Assembly (NCBI GenBank): GCA_013388435.1
Contig: JACAFE010000087.1
Location: 1-41,278, forward strand
From: Nitrospirota bacterium
Lineage (GTDB): Bacteria > Nitrospirota > Thermodesulfovibrionia > Thermodesulfovibrionales > SM23-35
Direction: 5' to 3'
Length of the DNA: 41,278 nt
Under the pieces are notes generated by a model. The model was not told the origin of the DNA. It saw only the letters and a program-made list of their open reading frames with translations, and did not search any database. Below, piece after piece: positions 10,220-32,692 of this stretch. The position numbers and the translations under genes are program-made. The stretch's first letter is position 1. Each line of letters opens with the position of its first letter.

Positions 10220-10642
10220 TTAATCAGTTTTTTTGATTTCATTAATCAGTTCAATAACTTTTTCTTTAATTTCATCCCTTGCACGTCTGAAGTCATTCAT
10301 TATATACTCTTCATTTCCCGAAGTTCCTACAGGGTCTTTTATAGGCCAGTGTAATCTTTTAATATTAGGGATGAATTTAGGACAAAATGTTTCTGCATAA
10401 CTGCATAATGTAATTACATAATCCATTTTCAAGAGTAAATCAGCGTCTATTTCTTTTGATTCCTGCCCGGAAATATCTATACCGATTTCTTTCATTACAT
10501 AAGCTGCTCTATGGTGAACGCCTGCTGCCATGATTCCAGCGCTGTACGCTTCTATGAAACCTCTGCCATATTCTCTTGCGAATCCTTCAGCCATCTGACT
10601 TCTGCAAGAATTTGCCGTGCATATAAACATTACTTTTTTCAT
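10220..10642 (-). CDS. arsC: Arsenate reductase, thioredoxin-coupled (low-molecular-weight phosphatase fold)
   Basis: A 140-residue protein with the P-loop C8-TANSC-R14 (CX5R) and two further redox cysteines, Cys80 and Cys87. That triple arrangement (C8/C80/C87) matches the spacing of the thioredoxin-dependent ArsC family, which reduces arsenate to arsenite. The start ATG has AGGGA about 5 bases upstream. The gene is the third of a minus-strand operon after a HesB-like selenoprotein and a thioredoxin-CcdA fusion, 21 bp behind the latter, so a membrane redox relay is encoded beside it. No ArsR, ArsB or Acr3 gene is nearby. A protein-tyrosine phosphatase role is less likely given the extra cysteines. 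Confidence 0.88.
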   Translation of the reverse strand: MKKVMFICTANSCRSQMAEGFAREYGRGFIEAYSAGIMAAGVHHRAAYVMKEIGIDISGQESKEIDADLLLKMDYVITLCSYAETFCPKFIPNIKRLHWPIKDPVGTSGNEEYIMNDFRRARDEIKEKVIELINEIKKTD

Positions 10643-10663: not shown

Positions 10664-12133
10664 TTATTTATACCCAAGTTTTTTTGTAATCAATATTAAG
10701 ATAAGTGATATAACAAAAGCTCCGAAAAGGATAAGAAATGAAATTAATGTATTGCTCAATATTGTAGGATCAAACAAAAGAACCAGACCCAGTCCAAGCA
10801 TCATTAATCCAGAAATTAACTTTAGAACTCTTCCCTGCCATTCGCTTAACTGTCTTTTGCCGAGTGTTATTGTGAAAGTTATAACAATTAAAAATAAAGG
10901 GATTACATAAATAATGTTATAAAGTAAAAGATAAGCATAATATGTAAGATTACTAAGGTTGTTTAAAGTTAGTATTCTTGTAAAAACCATTGGAAAGCCG
11001 GCTGTGCATAATAATTCATAGGAATTAGCAGCTATTGCAAGTGCAGTAGTGCCTAAAATTATAGATATAAAAGAACTTGATTTAAGAAGTTTTCTCATTT
11101 TATCGAAAAGACCTGGTTTAGCACTATCGGGTATTGTTAATGAAATGCCTTTTTTGAAGATAAAAAAATCTTTAATATTAATAATTGCTATTAAAACAGC
11201 GATAATGCCTGCAATTATTGTGATAATCTGAACCTGTCCCATAATAAGAAAGAGATTTAGCCATGCAGCCATAAAAAGAAAATATATAAAACCTGAAAAG
11301 AATACAAAAATACCGCCTATTATCAGAATTTTCTGTCTGGATCTTGCATGTATAAGAAGTCCTAAAAGTGAAAAAAGTACAAAGAATGCACAGGGATTAA
11401 AGCTATCTAATCCAGCTATTATAATTGTTATAACAGGTAAAGAAAGTTTTGATGCATCTACCCTGCCTAACCATGGAATATCAACATTTCTGCTTCTTTC
11501 TGTACATTCAACCTCTTTGGTTGTTTCTCCTGTAATTTGTGTTTTTGCTATATTTTCTATTAAAATTTTGCCAGAGGCTATAAGTCCGGGGTCTATACAC
11601 TTTGCCTCAGAACATTCCTGAATTGCTTTCTCAATATCGTATTCATTATTTTTTGAAAAACCTATAAATGAATGTGTTCCAATGAATGTAACAGGTACAC
11701 CCGAGGTTTTTAATTTATAAGCTGTGGCAATTTTCTTGAGAAAATCTGCATTTTCTTTGTGATACCATACTTCGAAATCTTTAATTTCAAGGTTAAATTT
11801 GTCTTTAATTCTTGCAAAAAAGGTTTTTTCTTCTTTGCAATGAGGACATCCATCTCCCCAGAAAAAATAAATAATTACCTTATTCTTTTCTGGAGTATTA
11901 AATTTTTCTAAAACTGGGGAAATTTTTATGCTTTTTTTCTTTTCAGTGGTTTTATCTTGATTATTAAAATCTTTCTGAATATTATTTGGCTGAATAATAT
12001 TTGCATCTTCGATGCATTCTTTTGATTTTTCTGCATCAGGTGAACAAATGCCTTCATCGGTTGTAGTGATGAAAGCATATGAATATGTGTTGAAAGAAAG
12101 AATAAATAGGAAAACGAAAAATAGATATTGCAT
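10664..12133 (-). CDS. Exported thioredoxin-like domain fused to a CcdA/DsbD-type membrane redox transporter
   Basis: 489 residues. An N-terminal signal segment (about 1-20) is followed by a low-complexity linker, a thioredoxin-fold domain with CPHC at 96-99 and the cis-Pro loop SGVPVTF (about 144-150), then a polytopic CcdA-like domain from about 232. The two cysteines expected to carry electrons across the membrane are Cys248 in SFNPCAFF and Cys376 in YELLCTAGFP. Likely role: moving reducing power from cytoplasmic thioredoxin to the periplasm, for example to keep haem-attachment cysteines or other thiols reduced. It is 17 bp downstream of the HesB-like gene. The ribosome site is weak, suggesting dependence on upstream translation. 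The multihaem cytochromes next door are plausible clients. Confidence 0.85.
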   Translation of the reverse strand: MQYLFFVFLFILSFNTYSYAFITTTDEGICSPDAEKSKECIEDANIIQPNNIQKDFNNQDKTTEKKKSIKISPVLEKFNTPEKNKVIIYFFWGDGCPHCKEEKTFFARIKDKFNLEIKDFEVWYHKENADFLKKIATAYKLKTSGVPVTFIGTHSFIGFSKNNEYDIEKAIQECSEAKCIDPGLIASGKILIENIAKTQITGETTKEVECTERSRNVDIPWLGRVDASKLSLPVITIIIAGLDSFNPCAFFVLFSLLGLLIHARSRQKILIIGGIFVFFSGFIYFLFMAAWLNLFLIMGQVQIITIIAGIIAVLIAIINIKDFFIFKKGISLTIPDSAKPGLFDKMRKLLKSSSFISIILGTTALAIAANSYELLCTAGFPMVFTRILTLNNLSNLTYYAYLLLYNIIYVIPLFLIVITFTITLGKRQLSEWQGRVLKLISGLMMLGLGLVLLFDPTILSNTLISFLILFGAFVISLILILITKKLGYK

Positions 12134-12150
12134 AAATTTGGATTATTTTC

Positions 12151-12438
12151 TTAAGAACAAGAGCAAGCATCAACTCCTGATAAAAAGAAGCCTGTTTCAT
12201 CAGAATAATCAATAGTTACATTTGGAAACCAGAGTACTGCTTCATTTTGTAAAAAAACTTTAAGTCCATCTCTTTCAAGCGTAACATCTCCCTCTACAGC
12301 ATCCTTGACTATGTCCATAGTCAGAGAGGGGCTTCAACCACCGGGTACAGCCAGAATTCTTATGCCGTGACCTGCAAGATTTTGCTCATTTATAAAATCT
12401 TTAAATTTTTTTACAGCTGAATCGGATACATTTAACAT
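12151..12438 (-). CDS. HesB/IscA-like selenoprotein with in-frame UGA at residue 35
   Basis: Reading through one TGA gives a complete 95-residue A-type (IscA/HesB/ErpA-like) protein. The family uses three cysteines near positions 35, 99 and 101. Here the C-terminal pair is Cys92 and Cys94 (DACSCS), and the first one is replaced by UGA at codon 35 (12334-12336) inside VPGG-UGA-SPSL, where the family has GG-C-S. The start ATG 12438 has AAGGAGA seven bases upstream, and both halves are in the same frame with no other defect. HesB-like selenoproteins are an established bacterial family, so I read the UGA as selenocysteine, not a nonsense mutation. A hairpin fitting a bacterial SECIS lies just downstream of the codon. 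The gene leads the operon with the thioredoxin-CcdA fusion and arsC. selA, selB, selC and selD are not in the window. Confidence 0.82.
12307..12322 (-). promoter_or_regulatory. Candidate bacterial SECIS hairpin for the UGA at 12334-12336
   Basis: On the minus strand GACTAT-GGAC-ATAGTC forms a perfect six-pair stem with a four-base loop starting GG. The loop begins 18 bases after the UGA. As I recall the bacterial SECIS rules, the apical loop lies about 16-37 bases past the UGA with a G in its first two positions, which this meets. An outer partial stem (CCCTCT with AGAGGG) may extend it. The hairpin is inside the coding sequence, as is usual in bacteria. Confidence 0.65.
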
Positions 12439-12643
12439 TATAAATCTCCTTAATTTTATAAAATTACATATTAAATATTATGTCTATTTATAAGTTTAGA
12501 AGTCAATATAATTCCCAAAATAAGATTTTTTCGACAGTATGGTTATTACAACCTACTGACATCTTGAAAAGTAATAATTAAGAAAAGGTGATTTATTTAA
12601 GCATGGTAAGATATTAATTGACTTTAGTGGTTTATAATTGATA

Positions 12644-12699: not shown

Positions 12700-13710
12700 A
12701 TGATGGATATGAGATTTAAAGAAATCTTATTATCAATAATTCTTTTATTTTTTTTACCCGTAATTTGCCAGAAGTCATATGCTACTGTTGGCGGAGATTG
12801 CGATGTCTGTCATAATCTCTATCCTGGAATGATGGAGAAGACTTATTCAAAAAAAGCATTCCAGTATGTTCTAAAAAACGAGTTCTGTGTAAACTGCCAT
12901 TCAAATATAACAAGTGACACTATAAAAATTCTCGGCGGAAATAGAGTTCCTGTGGTTTATAATAGCGTTCCTCCAATAAATTCTTTAGCTGGTGGAAATT
13001 TTTATTATGTTGGAAAGGATTTTGGTGACAGGAAGGGGCATAATGTCTATAAAATCGCTTCAAGTGATATGAAATTTAGAAATGAACCCCCGGGCTACAG
13101 CAGAAGAAACGACCATTCAAGTATAGGATATAATTTTAGAGAAAATTTAATGTGTGCAGGCTCAAATGGTTGTCATGGGGACAGAAATATTGAAGACCCA
13201 TTTTTGGCAATTATGGGAACTCATCATGCTATTGATAAACCAATCGATGGAAGCACAACTGCAAAAAGTTATAGATTCTTAAAAAATACATCTAATGAAA
13301 AAGGCGTAATAGGTTTAGAAGATAAAGACTGGAATCAAAAGGCAAATTCAAACAAACATAATGAATATTCAAAATCTATAGATGTTGTTTGTATTTCATG
13401 CCATGGTTCTTTTCATGATATTGAAAATAAACAGGGTGGCTGGTTCAGACATCCTGTTGGTGTTGCATTGCCTTTTAAGAAAGGATATGAAGATTATAAA
13501 ATATATAATATTGATGCACCTATTGCTCGTGAAATATTAAGTAACACTTCAAGTTCTGAGATAAATACAGGAAAGGATTCTGTAATGTGTCTTTCATGTC
13601 ATCTGGCACATGCAGGACCTTATGATTCAGCTTTAAGATGGGATTATGAAAACTTATATGCATCAGAAAACGGAAAAAGCGGTTGTCTAATATGCCATAT
13701 GGGAAAATGA
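12700..13710 (+). CDS. Exported multihaem c-type cytochrome (five CXXCH + one CX5CH)
   Basis: 336 residues with an N-terminal signal peptide ending near QKSYA, so the protein is periplasmic or beyond. Haem motifs: CDVCH 34-38, CVNCH 63-67, CISCH 231-235, CLSCH 297-301 and CLICH 329-333, plus CAGSNGCH 152-159, a CX5CH. There are many further His residues (GTHHAID, GHNVYK) that could be axial ligands. Three in-frame ATGs occur at 12700, 12703 and 12709; the last (MRFKEILLS) gives a clean n-region but none has a strong ribosome site. It is paralogous to the next gene, with which it overlaps by ATGA, and both keep the CX5CH. Likely role: extracytoplasmic electron transfer. I do not recognise a named family. 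Confidence 0.85.
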   Translation: MMDMRFKEILLSIILLFFLPVICQKSYATVGGDCDVCHNLYPGMMEKTYSKKAFQYVLKNEFCVNCHSNITSDTIKILGGNRVPVVYNSVPPINSLAGGNFYYVGKDFGDRKGHNVYKIASSDMKFRNEPPGYSRRNDHSSIGYNFRENLMCAGSNGCHGDRNIEDPFLAIMGTHHAIDKPIDGSTTAKSYRFLKNTSNEKGVIGLEDKDWNQKANSNKHNEYSKSIDVVCISCHGSFHDIENKQGGWFRHPVGVALPFKKGYEDYKIYNIDAPIAREILSNTSSSEINTGKDSVMCLSCHLAHAGPYDSALRWDYENLYASENGKSGCLICHMGK

Positions 13711-14924
13711 CACGGTTGACACAGTTTATACAGTTTACACGGTTCACACGGTTGATATGGTTCATACGGTTGACATGGTTTGAACAATTTAGTCAACCGG
13801 AGAAACAATATAAACCGAGTAAAATAAATAAATCGTGCAGACTGAGTAAACTATTGATCTTATGCTCTATGTTACTTGCTCTATGCTGTTTTTATTCTGA
13901 AGTTGATGCACGTGTGAAAGGAAAATGCAGGGATTGCCATTCAATGCATTACAGTAAAGAAGGGTTAGAAGTTACTTATGCATATCAACTTGGGCCTTTT
14001 CCATCAATGACAATCGGAGGTTGTCTCGGTTGTCATGGGCAAAATTCTTCTGGTACGGAAAATATTATTTTAAAAGGTAAAATGAGAGTTCCGCAGGTAA
14101 TTCATCATATGGAAGAAGGGGATCTTGCAGGTGGAAATTATTATTATGTTGCTGATCTATTCAGTAAAGACTATTCAAAAGGTCACAATGTTAAAGGAAT
14201 ATCTTTAATAGAAAAACCTCCAATGAATACACCCCCTGGTTTTATAGAGAGTGTAAATATTCCTGGTGGAACAGGTCCTTCTTCATGGCCATCTTTTAAA
14301 CAACTGACATGTTCTGGTACTTATGGTTGTCATGGTAACAGGACAATTGAAGATGAATTCGGAGCAATACATGGAGCTCATCATGAGGATGACTCAATCA
14401 TAGATGGCTCAACAGTTGGTAAAAGCTATAGATTTCTTTATGGAATTGTAGGAAAAGAGCATGAAAAATGGGAGTATCTTGCAACCGAGAATAATCATAA
14501 TGGTTATAAAGGGGATCAGAGCCATGATTCAATGAATACAATAAGCTATTTGTGCGGGGAATGTCATGGAAAATTTCATCCGAATCCAAATCTTGGCGGT
14601 AGCAAAGAAGTAGGTCATGCATATAATTCATTGTGGCGCAGGCATCCATCAGATATATCATTTAGCGGGGTTCACGGCGGATATATAGGTTCTGAATATC
14701 AGGGATATGTAAGTTATAATCTTCAATCACCTGTTGCTTATCAGAATCCTTCAGGGACTGAAAATATAGTGGACTCAGATAGCATTATAATGTGTCTATC
14801 ATGTCATAGAGCTCATGCAAGCCAATATTCTGATATACTTAGATGGGATTATTCAGAAGCTCAGGCAGGAAATCAGGATACAAAAAAAGGATGTCTTGTC
14901 TGTCATACCAAGAAAGCAAGATAA
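13707..14924 (+). CDS. Second exported multihaem cytochrome, paralogue of the preceding gene
   Basis: About 405 residues from ATG 13707, chosen because it overlaps the upstream stop as ATGA; an in-frame ATG at 13683 lies inside the upstream gene. Motifs in order: CRDCH, CLGCH, CSGTYGCH (CX5CH), CGECH, CLSCH, CLVCH. That is the same five-plus-one pattern as its neighbour, with shared blocks such as LAGGN-x-YYV, KGHNV, GCHG-x-R-x-IED, IDGS and LRWDY. The hydrophobic export core (LLILCSMLLALCC) is preceded by about 45 residues encoded partly by a 9-bp tandem repeat, an unusually long, Arg-rich and aromatic n-region. Translation is coupled to the first cytochrome, so the two probably work together in extracytoplasmic electron transfer. 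Confidence 0.82.
   Translation: MTRLTQFIQFTRFTRLIWFIRLTWFEQFSQPEKQYKPSKINKSCRLSKLLILCSMLLALCCFYSEVDARVKGKCRDCHSMHYSKEGLEVTYAYQLGPFPSMTIGGCLGCHGQNSSGTENIILKGKMRVPQVIHHMEEGDLAGGNYYYVADLFSKDYSKGHNVKGISLIEKPPMNTPPGFIESVNIPGGTGPSSWPSFKQLTCSGTYGCHGNRTIEDEFGAIHGAHHEDDSIIDGSTVGKSYRFLYGIVGKEHEKWEYLATENNHNGYKGDQSHDSMNTISYLCGECHGKFHPNPNLGGSKEVGHAYNSLWRRHPSDISFSGVHGGYIGSEYQGYVSYNLQSPVAYQNPSGTENIVDSDSIIMCLSCHRAHASQYSDILRWDYSEAQAGNQDTKKGCLVCHTKKAR
13712..13792 (+). repeat. Nine-unit 9-bp tandem repeat, read in frame
   Basis: Nine imperfect copies of a 9-base unit with consensus close to ACGGTTGAC (variants ACAGTTTAT, ACGGTTCAC, ATGGTTCAT, ACAATTTAG) run without gaps. The array starts five bases after the start codon of the second cytochrome. 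Because the unit is three codons, copy-number change keeps frame; it encodes triplets of the type Thr/Ile-Arg/Gln/Trp-Leu/Phe. Just after it, GTCAACCGG is the inverse complement of the CGGTTGAC in the repeat, so hairpins are possible. Confidence 0.85.
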
Positions 14925-15270: not shown

Positions 15271-15663
15271 TTATGCCTCTGTCAATTTATATTTTAATAA
15301 GAGATTTTGAAAATCAAAATATTCATTCAAAATTTGAGGTTCGACAATAATCTTAAAAGGTTCGGTTTCGAATATCAATTTTCCTTCTTTAATAATGTTA
15401 TATTTCAATTCTGGCGATTCTGCCAAGTTTAAAATGACAATATCAATCTTGTCAGTCTTTAAAAGGCGACTTATTTTGTCAAACAGTTCAAACTTTATTT
15501 CATAAATTCTTTTTTTGTCTTTAGTATCAAAATAAATGGCAAAATCGTAATCACTCATATATGATTCCTTACAGATTGCTTTAGAGCCGAAAAAATATAC
15601 TAATTTTATTTCAGAATAGGCTTTAAAAATTGTATTTAATTTTTTTATGTATTTGTTATTCAT
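15271..15663 (-). CDS. MntA-type minimal nucleotidyltransferase (antitoxin of a MntA-HepT pair)
   Basis: 130 residues. The signature GSX10DXD is exact: Gly26-Ser27, ten residues, Asp38-Tyr39-Asp40, followed by the predicted third carboxylate in KIDIVIL. MntA proteins AMPylate and so inactivate their HEPN partner HepT. The HepT reading frame that follows is cut to about 37 codons, so this antitoxin appears orphaned here. It sits alone between the cytochromes and lysC, with an AT-rich flank on both sides. It could also be retained as an antidote against HepT elsewhere in the genome. Confidence 0.8.
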   Translation of the reverse strand: MNNKYIKKLNTIFKAYSEIKLVYFFGSKAICKESYMSDYDFAIYFDTKDKKRIYEIKFELFDKISRLLKTDKIDIVILNLAESPELKYNIIKEGKLIFETEPFKIIVEPQILNEYFDFQNLLLKYKLTEA

Positions 15664-21323: not shown

Positions 21324-21558
21324 CTATAATTAAACCCCCTTCCTCAGAATTTCCCCATAAGATGAGGGATTGAAATTTGAAGCATTACACTCCATCTTGT
21401 TTTTTTAATTTAGGGGCCGGGGTATGACTTTAGTAGATCATAGAGGAGGAGAGAAAGACGGTGTTTTAAACAAAAATTTCCATTTTTTCTCTATTTTATA
21501 AAAGAATTCTTTATTTCTCCTCAATAAATTTGTCATAACAACCAGCCTGTTAAGTATT
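21324..21558 (-). other. Leader region between the 6S-like RNA and rny
   Basis: About 235 bp. A minus-strand frame of 32 codons from ATG at about 21536 reads MTNLLRRNKEFFYKIEKK.. and ends near 21438; it has no convincing ribosome site and I do not recognise it. Near rny, CCTCA and TGAGG can pair around the ribosome site region, which might modulate rny translation. The AAAGAATTCTTT palindrome could mark the end of the upstream RNA, but it has no good U-run. Confidence 0.3.
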
Positions 21559-21733
21559 CCCACCCTGCCGTGTAAAGCGAAATTAGATCCCATTTTTGTT
21601 ATAAGTGGGTGCCCTGAAAGGACCCGCAGGCTTCCCAGTATTAAACAGGGCATGCACAAAAGGCCTTTACACAGGCTCCCAAAAGATCTAATTTGCCGGA
21701 TCAACATGTTCGCCTTATCACCAACAGGGCAGG
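21559..21733 (-). ncRNA. ssrS: Likely 6S RNA (RNA polymerase regulator)
   Basis: A 175-base minus-strand segment without a gene folds as a long rod. The ends pair over nine positions (CCUGCCCUG with CAGGGUGGG, including G-U). Inside, AAATTAGATC pairs perfectly with GATCTAATTT, then a wide bubble, then TGCCCTG with CAGGGCA near the tip. Size and shape (about 180 bases, closing stem, central bubble, terminal stem) are those of 6S RNA, and motifs such as GGGAGCC and GGAAGCCTGCGGG resemble the family. It lies just upstream of rny. 6S RNA mimics an open promoter and holds sigma-70 holoenzyme in stationary phase. A plausible promoter (TTGCCT, 16 bases, TATATT at 21791-21796) lies upstream. A covariance search was not possible. 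Confidence 0.62.
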
Positions 21734-21849
21734 TAAATTGTTGCCCTGAAATGTATTCCTCCTGAATTAGTTATTTACTATTAGAATTAGAATATACTAA
21801 AAAAGCATTTTTAGGCAAGAAGAAAATTTTAAAATTAAATGATATTAAG

Positions 21850-29167: not shown

Positions 29168-29225
29168 TTTTCCTCCCGCGAGAAATATTCAAGATAAAAC
29201 GGTTTAATAACCGCTGTTTCTTTTT

Positions 29226-29455
29226 ATCTGAACAGGTTTTCCGGCTCAGGGCAATTTTAACTTCCTACTTACCCACCTTCCCATCCTTTGACATGTTAAG
29301 GACAGTGGTCTTCTTTTAGTTCGTAGTTTGGAGATTTATGTCCATTATTTTTTTATCTCTAATAGCAATGAACCATGAACTAAAAAGGGCTTTCGTTCCC
29401 TTCACGGCTGCGGGGCAGCGGAGGATTGTTACCTCACTTCCCTGACTTTCAGATA
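29226..29455 (-). promoter_or_regulatory. Cobalamin riboswitch controlling the BtuB-like receptor
   Basis: The minus strand contains the class hallmarks in order: GTCAGGGAAGTGAGG, CGCTGCCCCGCAGCCGTGA, GGGAACGAAAGCCC, CCACTGTCC, GGATGGGAAGGTGGG, AAGTAGGAAG and GAGCCGGAAAACCTG. A long variable arm closed by AGTTC/GAACT is inserted. About 25 bases after the aptamer, CGGTT-ATTA-AACCG followed by TTTTAT could act as a short terminator, just before the receptor's ribosome site. Binding of adenosylcobalamin would shut off receptor expression. Confidence 0.93.
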
Positions 29456-29504
29456 ATGTAAATATTAAAACTCACATTCAATAATCATGGATTTAAAAAT
29501 GCTA

Positions 29505-32341: not shown

Positions 32342-32424
32342 CTTCCACCCTCGTGAAATTCTTTTTCTGGTTTAGGGTTCCGGGTTAAATTAGGAACTTT
32401 TAACCAAAATATGATTCTAAGAAA

Positions 32425-32640
32425 TCTGGATAGGTCTTCCGGCTTAGGGCGGTTTATCAGTTTCCTACTTGCCCACCTTCCCGTCCTTTGACAAACTCAG
32501 GACAGTGGCTTTAATTAGTCTCAATCATTGGTCATTAGTAATTGACTAAATGACTCTTATCGGGCTTTCGTTCCCTTCACGGCTGCGGGGCAGCGGGAGA
32601 ATTGCTAAAAAGCTCACTCCTCTTCCCTGACTTCCGAATA
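32425..32640 (-). promoter_or_regulatory. Cobalamin riboswitch controlling btuFCD
   Basis: The same conserved blocks as the switch at 29.3 kb are present: GTCAGGGAAGAGGAGTGAG, CGCTGCCCCGCAGCCGTGA, GGGAACGAAAGCCC, GCCACTGTCC, GGACGGGAAGGTGGGC, AAGTAGGAAA and AAGCCGGAAGACCT. The variable arm differs (an AGTC/GACT closed stem). About 85 bases separate it from the btuF ATG. Corrinoid binding would lower transporter expression. Confidence 0.94.
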
Positions 32641-32692
32641 TTTTATAACATATAGTATAAGTAATTTTCAATCGCTGGAAAAAACTACGGAA

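Follow-up and report, generated by a model that had tools for sequence, protein, structure and literature searches.

The window, that is, the whole stretch of 41,278 nucleotides that was analysed, carries on its minus strand a hesB-like gene with an in-frame UGA codon, together with putative signals for its translation and two genes that follow it in the order hesB, 489-aa protein gene, arsC:

12151..12438, minus strand: hesB/iscA-like gene of 95 codons, predicted to encode a selenoprotein (ATG at 12438; TAA at 12153..12151)
12336..12334, minus strand: in-frame UGA, codon 35, predicted selenocysteine (Sec) in the position where A-type carriers have their first conserved metal/cluster ligand
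12445..12451, minus strand: Shine-Dalgarno sequence AAGGAGA, as read from the sequence
12306..12323, minus strand: putative apical hairpin of a bacterial SECIS, 7 bp, GGAC loop at 12316..12313, spacing of 17 nt from the UGA
10664..12133, minus strand: 489-aa protein, weakly thioredoxin-like in one domain (CPHC motif), whose C-terminal half is apparently membrane-spanning
10220..10642, minus strand: ArsC, thioredoxin-type arsenate reductase (LMWPc fold), 82 bits

Translation of 12438..12151 gives MLNVSDSAVKKFKDFINEQNLAGHGIRILAVPGG-U-SPSLTMDIVKDAVEGDVTLERDGLKVFLQNEAVLWFPNVTIDYSDETGFFLSGVDACSCS, where the UGA at codon 35 is the single in-frame stop before the TAA. From base composition, the chance that a 95-codon frame contains exactly one stop, and that this stop is a TGA, is about 0.001. 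An earlier, sequence-only reading had placed a 95-residue A-type Fe-S carrier at the same coordinates without naming a strand, and had pointed to a UGA at the conserved metal-binding Cys, to the retained ligands Cys92 and Cys94, to a strong ribosome site and to the absence of other lesions. The coordinates are right and refer to the minus strand, the alignment bears out that the UGA takes the place of the first conserved Cys and that both C-terminal ligands are kept, the ribosome site is the AAGGAGA listed above, and no further internal stop occurs.

The same reading had seen an operon with a CcdA-thioredoxin fusion and ArsC. Here ArsC stands, but the fusion is not confirmed: the thioredoxin half of the 489-aa protein is weakly supported by a sub-threshold match, and the C-terminal half, which CcdA would occupy, is not recognised by Pfam. 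The gene for this protein adjoins hesB also in the sister species, with 84% identity. On the other side, two adjacent multihaem c-type cytochrome genes (window 12700-14924) are divergent from hesB, and they adjoin it in the sister species as well. Elsewhere in the window are a 6S RNA (21553-21738, minus; Rfam, 81.8 bits) and two cobalamin riboswitches (29214-29484 and 32411-32653, minus), which precede a TonB-dependent-receptor-like gene and a periplasmic-binding/ABC-transporter-like set.

The product passes the cut-off of Pfam Fe-S_biosyn (PF01521) with 31.4 bits against 26.3, and an AlphaFold model made from 15 clade sequences (mean pLDDT 90) superimposes on E. coli IscA (1r94/1s98) with a TM score of 0.77 (Foldseek E 2.6e-7 to 1r94). 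Profile, predicted fold and the three ligands U35, C92 and C94 together place it in the superfamily of A-type Fe-S carriers. When the gene is scored with the curated models for HesB-like selenoproteins, it reaches 18.3 bits with TIGR01911, where the cut-off is 66.35, and 38.5 bits with NF038090 (IscA_HesB_Se), where the cut-off is 85. The claim that it belongs to a known HesB-like selenoprotein family is supported as to kind, but the existing curated models do not take it in; since both cut-offs are missed by a wide margin, the gene is, as judged from these scores, a member of a distinct subfamily of HesB-like selenoproteins. Four further clade members likewise lie under the curated NCBIfam cut-offs, so that all five members scanned are below, from which it follows that genome annotation probably overlooks genes of this clade or reports them as truncated. 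In a tree, which is unrooted and built from few alignment columns, the branch that sets the clade apart has a support of 100/100; no conclusion is drawn from the E. coli IscA row in this tree.

Conservation of the UGA and of the hairpin

When 176 genomes of the same order were searched, 16 strong matches (E < 1e-21) were obtained, the window's gene included. Fourteen of these have one internal stop, which is always a TGA and always at the identical codon, and the remaining two have none and read Cys-Cys there. Among all clade members examined, 19 have UGA at codon 35 and 8 have Cys. The expected replacement of Sec by Cys is therefore seen among the homologues, and the scattered stops that would go with decay are not: in every relative this codon is either the one in-frame UGA or a Cys codon. 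A wider scan of contigs extended the clade, with UGA or Cys, to metagenome-assembled genomes (MAGs) labelled Actinomycetes, Thermoleophilia, Deltaproteobacteria and Elusimicrobia; no relatives were found on viral contigs, and on plasmids there was a single distant match. Comparison with the sister species gives dN 0.030 and dS 0.69 for the whole gene, and dN 0.033 and dS 0.71 for the part after the UGA. Purifying selection acts on the gene before as well as after the UGA, and from the low dN in relation to dS, also in the downstream part, it follows that the full-length protein is maintained.

The published model of the bacterial SECIS has a loop of 3-9 nt, a stem of 4-16 bp and a spacing of 16-37 nt, with G in the first two loop positions and a minimum free energy of -7.5 or lower (PMC13188914). 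The hairpin of the window, with a stem of 6-7 bp, the 4-nt loop GGAC and 17 nt of spacing, lies within these limits for loop length, stem, G position and spacing, and its folding energy goes from -8.8 kcal/mol (38 nt) to -14 kcal/mol (48 nt), with -5.4 kcal/mol for the isolated 18-nt hairpin. In this one sequence, the folding is no better than chance (z = -1.07) and was rejected as proof of a SECIS. Moreover, all six pairs arise in about 17% of synonymous recodings of the window's gene, because the peptide Leu-Thr-Met-Asp-Ile-Val already fixes most of them. Of the earlier claim of a six-pair hairpin with a GG-starting loop at SECIS distance, the anatomy is therefore upheld, but not the significance in a single sequence.

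The significance of the hairpin comes instead from its conservation across the clade, which, by comparison of sequences, is decisive. All 19 UGA genes have the six pairs and the GG-starting loop, whereas a single one of the 8 Cys homologues has them (Fisher P = 9e-6, with related sequences treated as independent). The predicted helix is paired in 99% of cells at its true register and in 14-44% when the register is slid. To exemplify how pairing is retained, consider the one pair that covaries. In three sequences it is A-U, written by a Thr and a Val codon, in most it is G-C, written by two Ala codons, and in one sequence there is the intermediate G-U, with an Ala and a Val codon. As read from these codons, the swap between A-U and G-C is compensatory and passes through changes of the encoded amino acids.

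From this the standing of the simplest alternative can be assessed, namely that the gene is a pseudogene or contains a sequencing error, with the UGA as a genuine nonsense mutation. An automatic reading does give a frame of 34 codons, and the hairpin by itself is not significant in one sequence. However, 19 examined genes from many genomes, some of them MAGs assigned by label to other phyla, share the UGA at this codon. This conservation, together with the conserved hairpin, the low dN/dS after the UGA and the lack of any other lesion, leads to rejection of this alternative, to which a negligible probability is assigned. It is, on the other hand, highly probable from the sequence comparison that the gene encodes a protein of the HesB/IscA fold with its UGA recoded as Sec.

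Selenocysteine machinery and the selD gene

The genome to which the window belongs (G000) has 2.15 Mb and is 98% complete, and that of the sister species (G092) is 96% complete. The sequence-only reading had made its case dependent on selenocysteine machinery in the genome, and most of this is there: selA (631 bits), SelB, and a tRNASec with UCA anticodon and G73, which resembles that of relatives; the part that is missing is selD. Between the two species SelA has dN 0.043 and dS 0.55 and is under purifying selection, and inspection of its invariant columns for changes that would signify altered function revealed nothing unusual. Both genomes also conserve a second UGA gene, which encodes a peroxiredoxin (FTFV-U-ATEL). 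Further loci that enter the argument are:

G000 C65:122619-123224 (L119), minus strand: UGA peroxiredoxin, with hairpin-like sequence downstream
G092 C45:33473-34078 (L076): UGA peroxiredoxin of the sister species, likewise with hairpin-like sequence downstream
G000 C20:13633-15489 and 15540-15631 (L001, L010, L051), in the sister species L115: selC*-tRNACys/selB* cassette
L051:10587-12628 and L115:5055-7096: yedF loci

The UGA peroxiredoxin gene adjoins arsC in the sister species and lies on a different contig in the window's genome.

Neither assembly of the genus yielded a selD gene. The proteins of the AIRS family in both genomes are accounted for as PurM, PurL, HypE and ThiL, and weak selD matches on contigs C61, C59 and C63 came from sequences that turned out to be ThiL, HypE and PurM. 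In the other genomes of the family, selD is above the cut-off in 17 of 18, the last one having fragments, and it is found in 118 of 126 good assemblies of the order, with about 6% lacking a match. A relative has selD immediately ahead of yedF; in both genomes of the genus the yedF(-csdA) cluster lies inside contigs of 52-53 kb and is without selD, nor is a UGA-interrupted selD hidden in the gap upstream of yedF. The genus keeps selA, tRNASec and the UGA genes in both genomes, and selB is confirmed in that of the window. An assembly gap is a possible cause of the absence, while true loss or relocation of selD is plausible, because two genomes out of two lack the gene and the locus has changed. 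If the gap in the pathway is real, it raises the question of how selenium is activated for Sec.

In the window's genome, a second selB lies directly downstream of a tRNASec-like tRNA, which at first could be taken for a second decoder of UGA. This is ruled out by its anticodon GCA and its discriminator U73, which identify it as a selC*-type tRNACys. Such selC*-tRNACys/selB* cassettes are of an already described kind (PMC7609411); the tRNA on C20 departs from the description of the selC* class in that its T-stem, as read here, has 5 bp and lacks the A51a bulge. A second tRNASec-like gene also occurs in several other genomes of the family.

Suppose now that the UGA is recoded in this genus, but not as Sec: Cys or Ser would then be inserted, for example by altered charging or by a selC* tRNA of the Cys type that is served by a SelB of its own. 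The absence of selD from both assemblies, and from the yedF cluster where the relative has it, would fit, as would the Cys-type tRNA (GCA, U73) with its adjacent second SelB, and selC* tRNAs that carry a UCA anticodon have been described as a class (PMC7609411). However, with its GCA anticodon the Cys-type tRNA of this genome reads UGC and UGU and not UGA, the tRNA with the UCA anticodon has G73 and is like that of relatives, and SelA is intact and conserved. SelA is not known to have a use without selenophosphate. Recoding as an amino acid other than Sec is accordingly given a small probability.

Linkage to arsenic-resistance genes and the proposed role

Linkage was scored as the presence of arsD, arsA, arsC or ACR3 within 4 kb of hesB. 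By this count, arsenic genes are near 14 of the 22 clade loci and near none of 16 loci from two other UGA-HesB subfamilies of the same order (Fisher P = 3e-5, with related loci treated as independent). The other eight clade loci lack all four genes within 4 kb, some of them on short contigs. Five loci (L124, L127, L129, L134 and L136) have the order arsD-hesB-arsA, a sixth (L133) reads arsR-ACR3-usp-arsD-hesB(Cys)-hesB(U)-arsA, and at L122, L125 and L132 hesB is beside arsC and/or ACR3; the neighbour families were verified by Pfam (ArsD 133 bits, ArsA 523 bits). An ArsC homologue is found at most 4 kb from hesB in 7 of the 22 loci, the window included. In the window itself arsC is the only linked arsenic gene, with an ACR3 arsenite exporter elsewhere in the genome, and this ArsC neighbour reflects the wider link of the clade with arsenic-resistance genes. 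No paper that links HesB selenoproteins to ars operons was found in the open-access literature.

The two other UGA-HesB subfamilies (L060-L066 and L067-L075), which are without arsenic genes within 4 kb, have the motifs GG-U-STSYGLD and GG-U-GCGPSYGIG and conserved hairpin-like sequences of their own, CCCCUGGAAGGGG and CCUAUGGAAUAGG. Paired hesB genes, one with UGA and one with Cys, stand among ars genes at L056 (G091 C143) and L057 (G004 C28), where a gene duplication with Sec/Cys divergence is possible. The record DYFC01000047.1 (L121, sister genome) is titled Nitrospira japonica, a name that looks wrong, its relatives in the present search being mostly Thermodesulfovibrionales-type MAGs.

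According to the mechanism proposed here, SelB and Sec-tRNASec(UCA) would bind the hairpin just downstream, and the UGA at codon 35 would be read as Sec. The product would then have 95 residues, with Sec35, Cys92 and Cys94 as a three-ligand site, where Sec would give a tighter or more redox-active ligation. The site may bind a thiophilic metal(loid), for which As(III) is the obvious candidate; alternatively, the protein may carry, deliver or repair Fe-S units, or protect Fe-S proteins, under arsenic stress. In arsenic-binding proteins As(III) is usually coordinated by three thiolates, and from this follows that one selenolate and two thiolates would make a reasonable As(III) binder. An arsenic-linked function, to which gene neighbourhood and conserved ligands point, is put forward tentatively, with a probability somewhat below one half, and the exact chemistry of the site is more doubtful still. 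Recurrence in the arsD-arsA slot offers As(III) handling as a concrete and testable candidate function, and it may also explain why selenium, a strong binder of arsenic, is favoured.

A-type proteins are in general Fe-S carriers, and the protein could be an ordinary one that happens to contain Sec, with the arsenic link incidental or due to hitch-hiking on mobile ars islands. Its fold and ligands are those of the A-type, and at 8 of 22 loci the arsenic genes are lacking nearby. This is a serious candidate, though one short of an even chance, and three observations speak against it: the arsD-arsA slot recurs in several genomes, some of them MAGs with labels other than Nitrospirota, arsenic genes are absent at all 16 other UGA-HesB loci, and there is an independent precedent in the HesB-like orf7 of the ars1 operon of Bacillus sp. 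CDB3 (PMC4562236). That the gene product is a Sec-recoded protein of the HesB/IscA fold from a clade that travels with arsenic-resistance genes is, as an overall explanation, considered probable. The much more specific picture, in which a Sec-Cys-Cys As(III) metallochaperone or scavenger of ars operons is combined with a genus that lacks SelD and uses an undescribed route of selenium or of filling the UGA, is very unlikely to hold in all its parts.

Comparison with known systems

HesB-like selenoproteins were found in 11 cases in a bacterial survey of 2006 (PMC1794560), and according to a review of 2026 they still belong to the many selenoproteins whose function is unclear (PMC13188914). With those described by TIGR01911 and NF038090, the present clade shares the A-type fold, the predicted Sec in place of the first ligand Cys, behind a Gly-rich turn, and a putative bacterial SECIS directly 3' of the Sec codon. 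It differs in its motif, which is GG-U-x-P-S-L-[TA]-M-D-I and not the UxGP listed for HesB-like selenoproteins, and in its neighbourhood of arsenic genes.

The predicted fold is also that of E. coli IscA and SufA, H. influenzae HI1723 (2apn) and A. aeolicus AQ_1857 (1nwb), with TM scores of 0.64-0.77, and these proteins share the sequence profile match and the three-ligand plan C-x(n)-C-x-C. They differ in that they are all-Cys, general Fe-S assembly proteins, with an identity of about 22-33%.

A likeness in gene context is offered by the HesB-like orf7 of Bacillus CDB3, whose operon also contains arsD and arsA. This gene is from another phylum, has a different gene order and was compared by description; the excerpt of that description does not mention a selenoprotein (PMC4562236). 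The ArsD metallochaperone, finally, resembles the proposed product as a small protein with a Cys-rich site and a gene adjoining arsA. This likeness is a functional analogy only, since ArsD belongs to an unrelated family, and arsD occurs together with hesB instead of being replaced by it.
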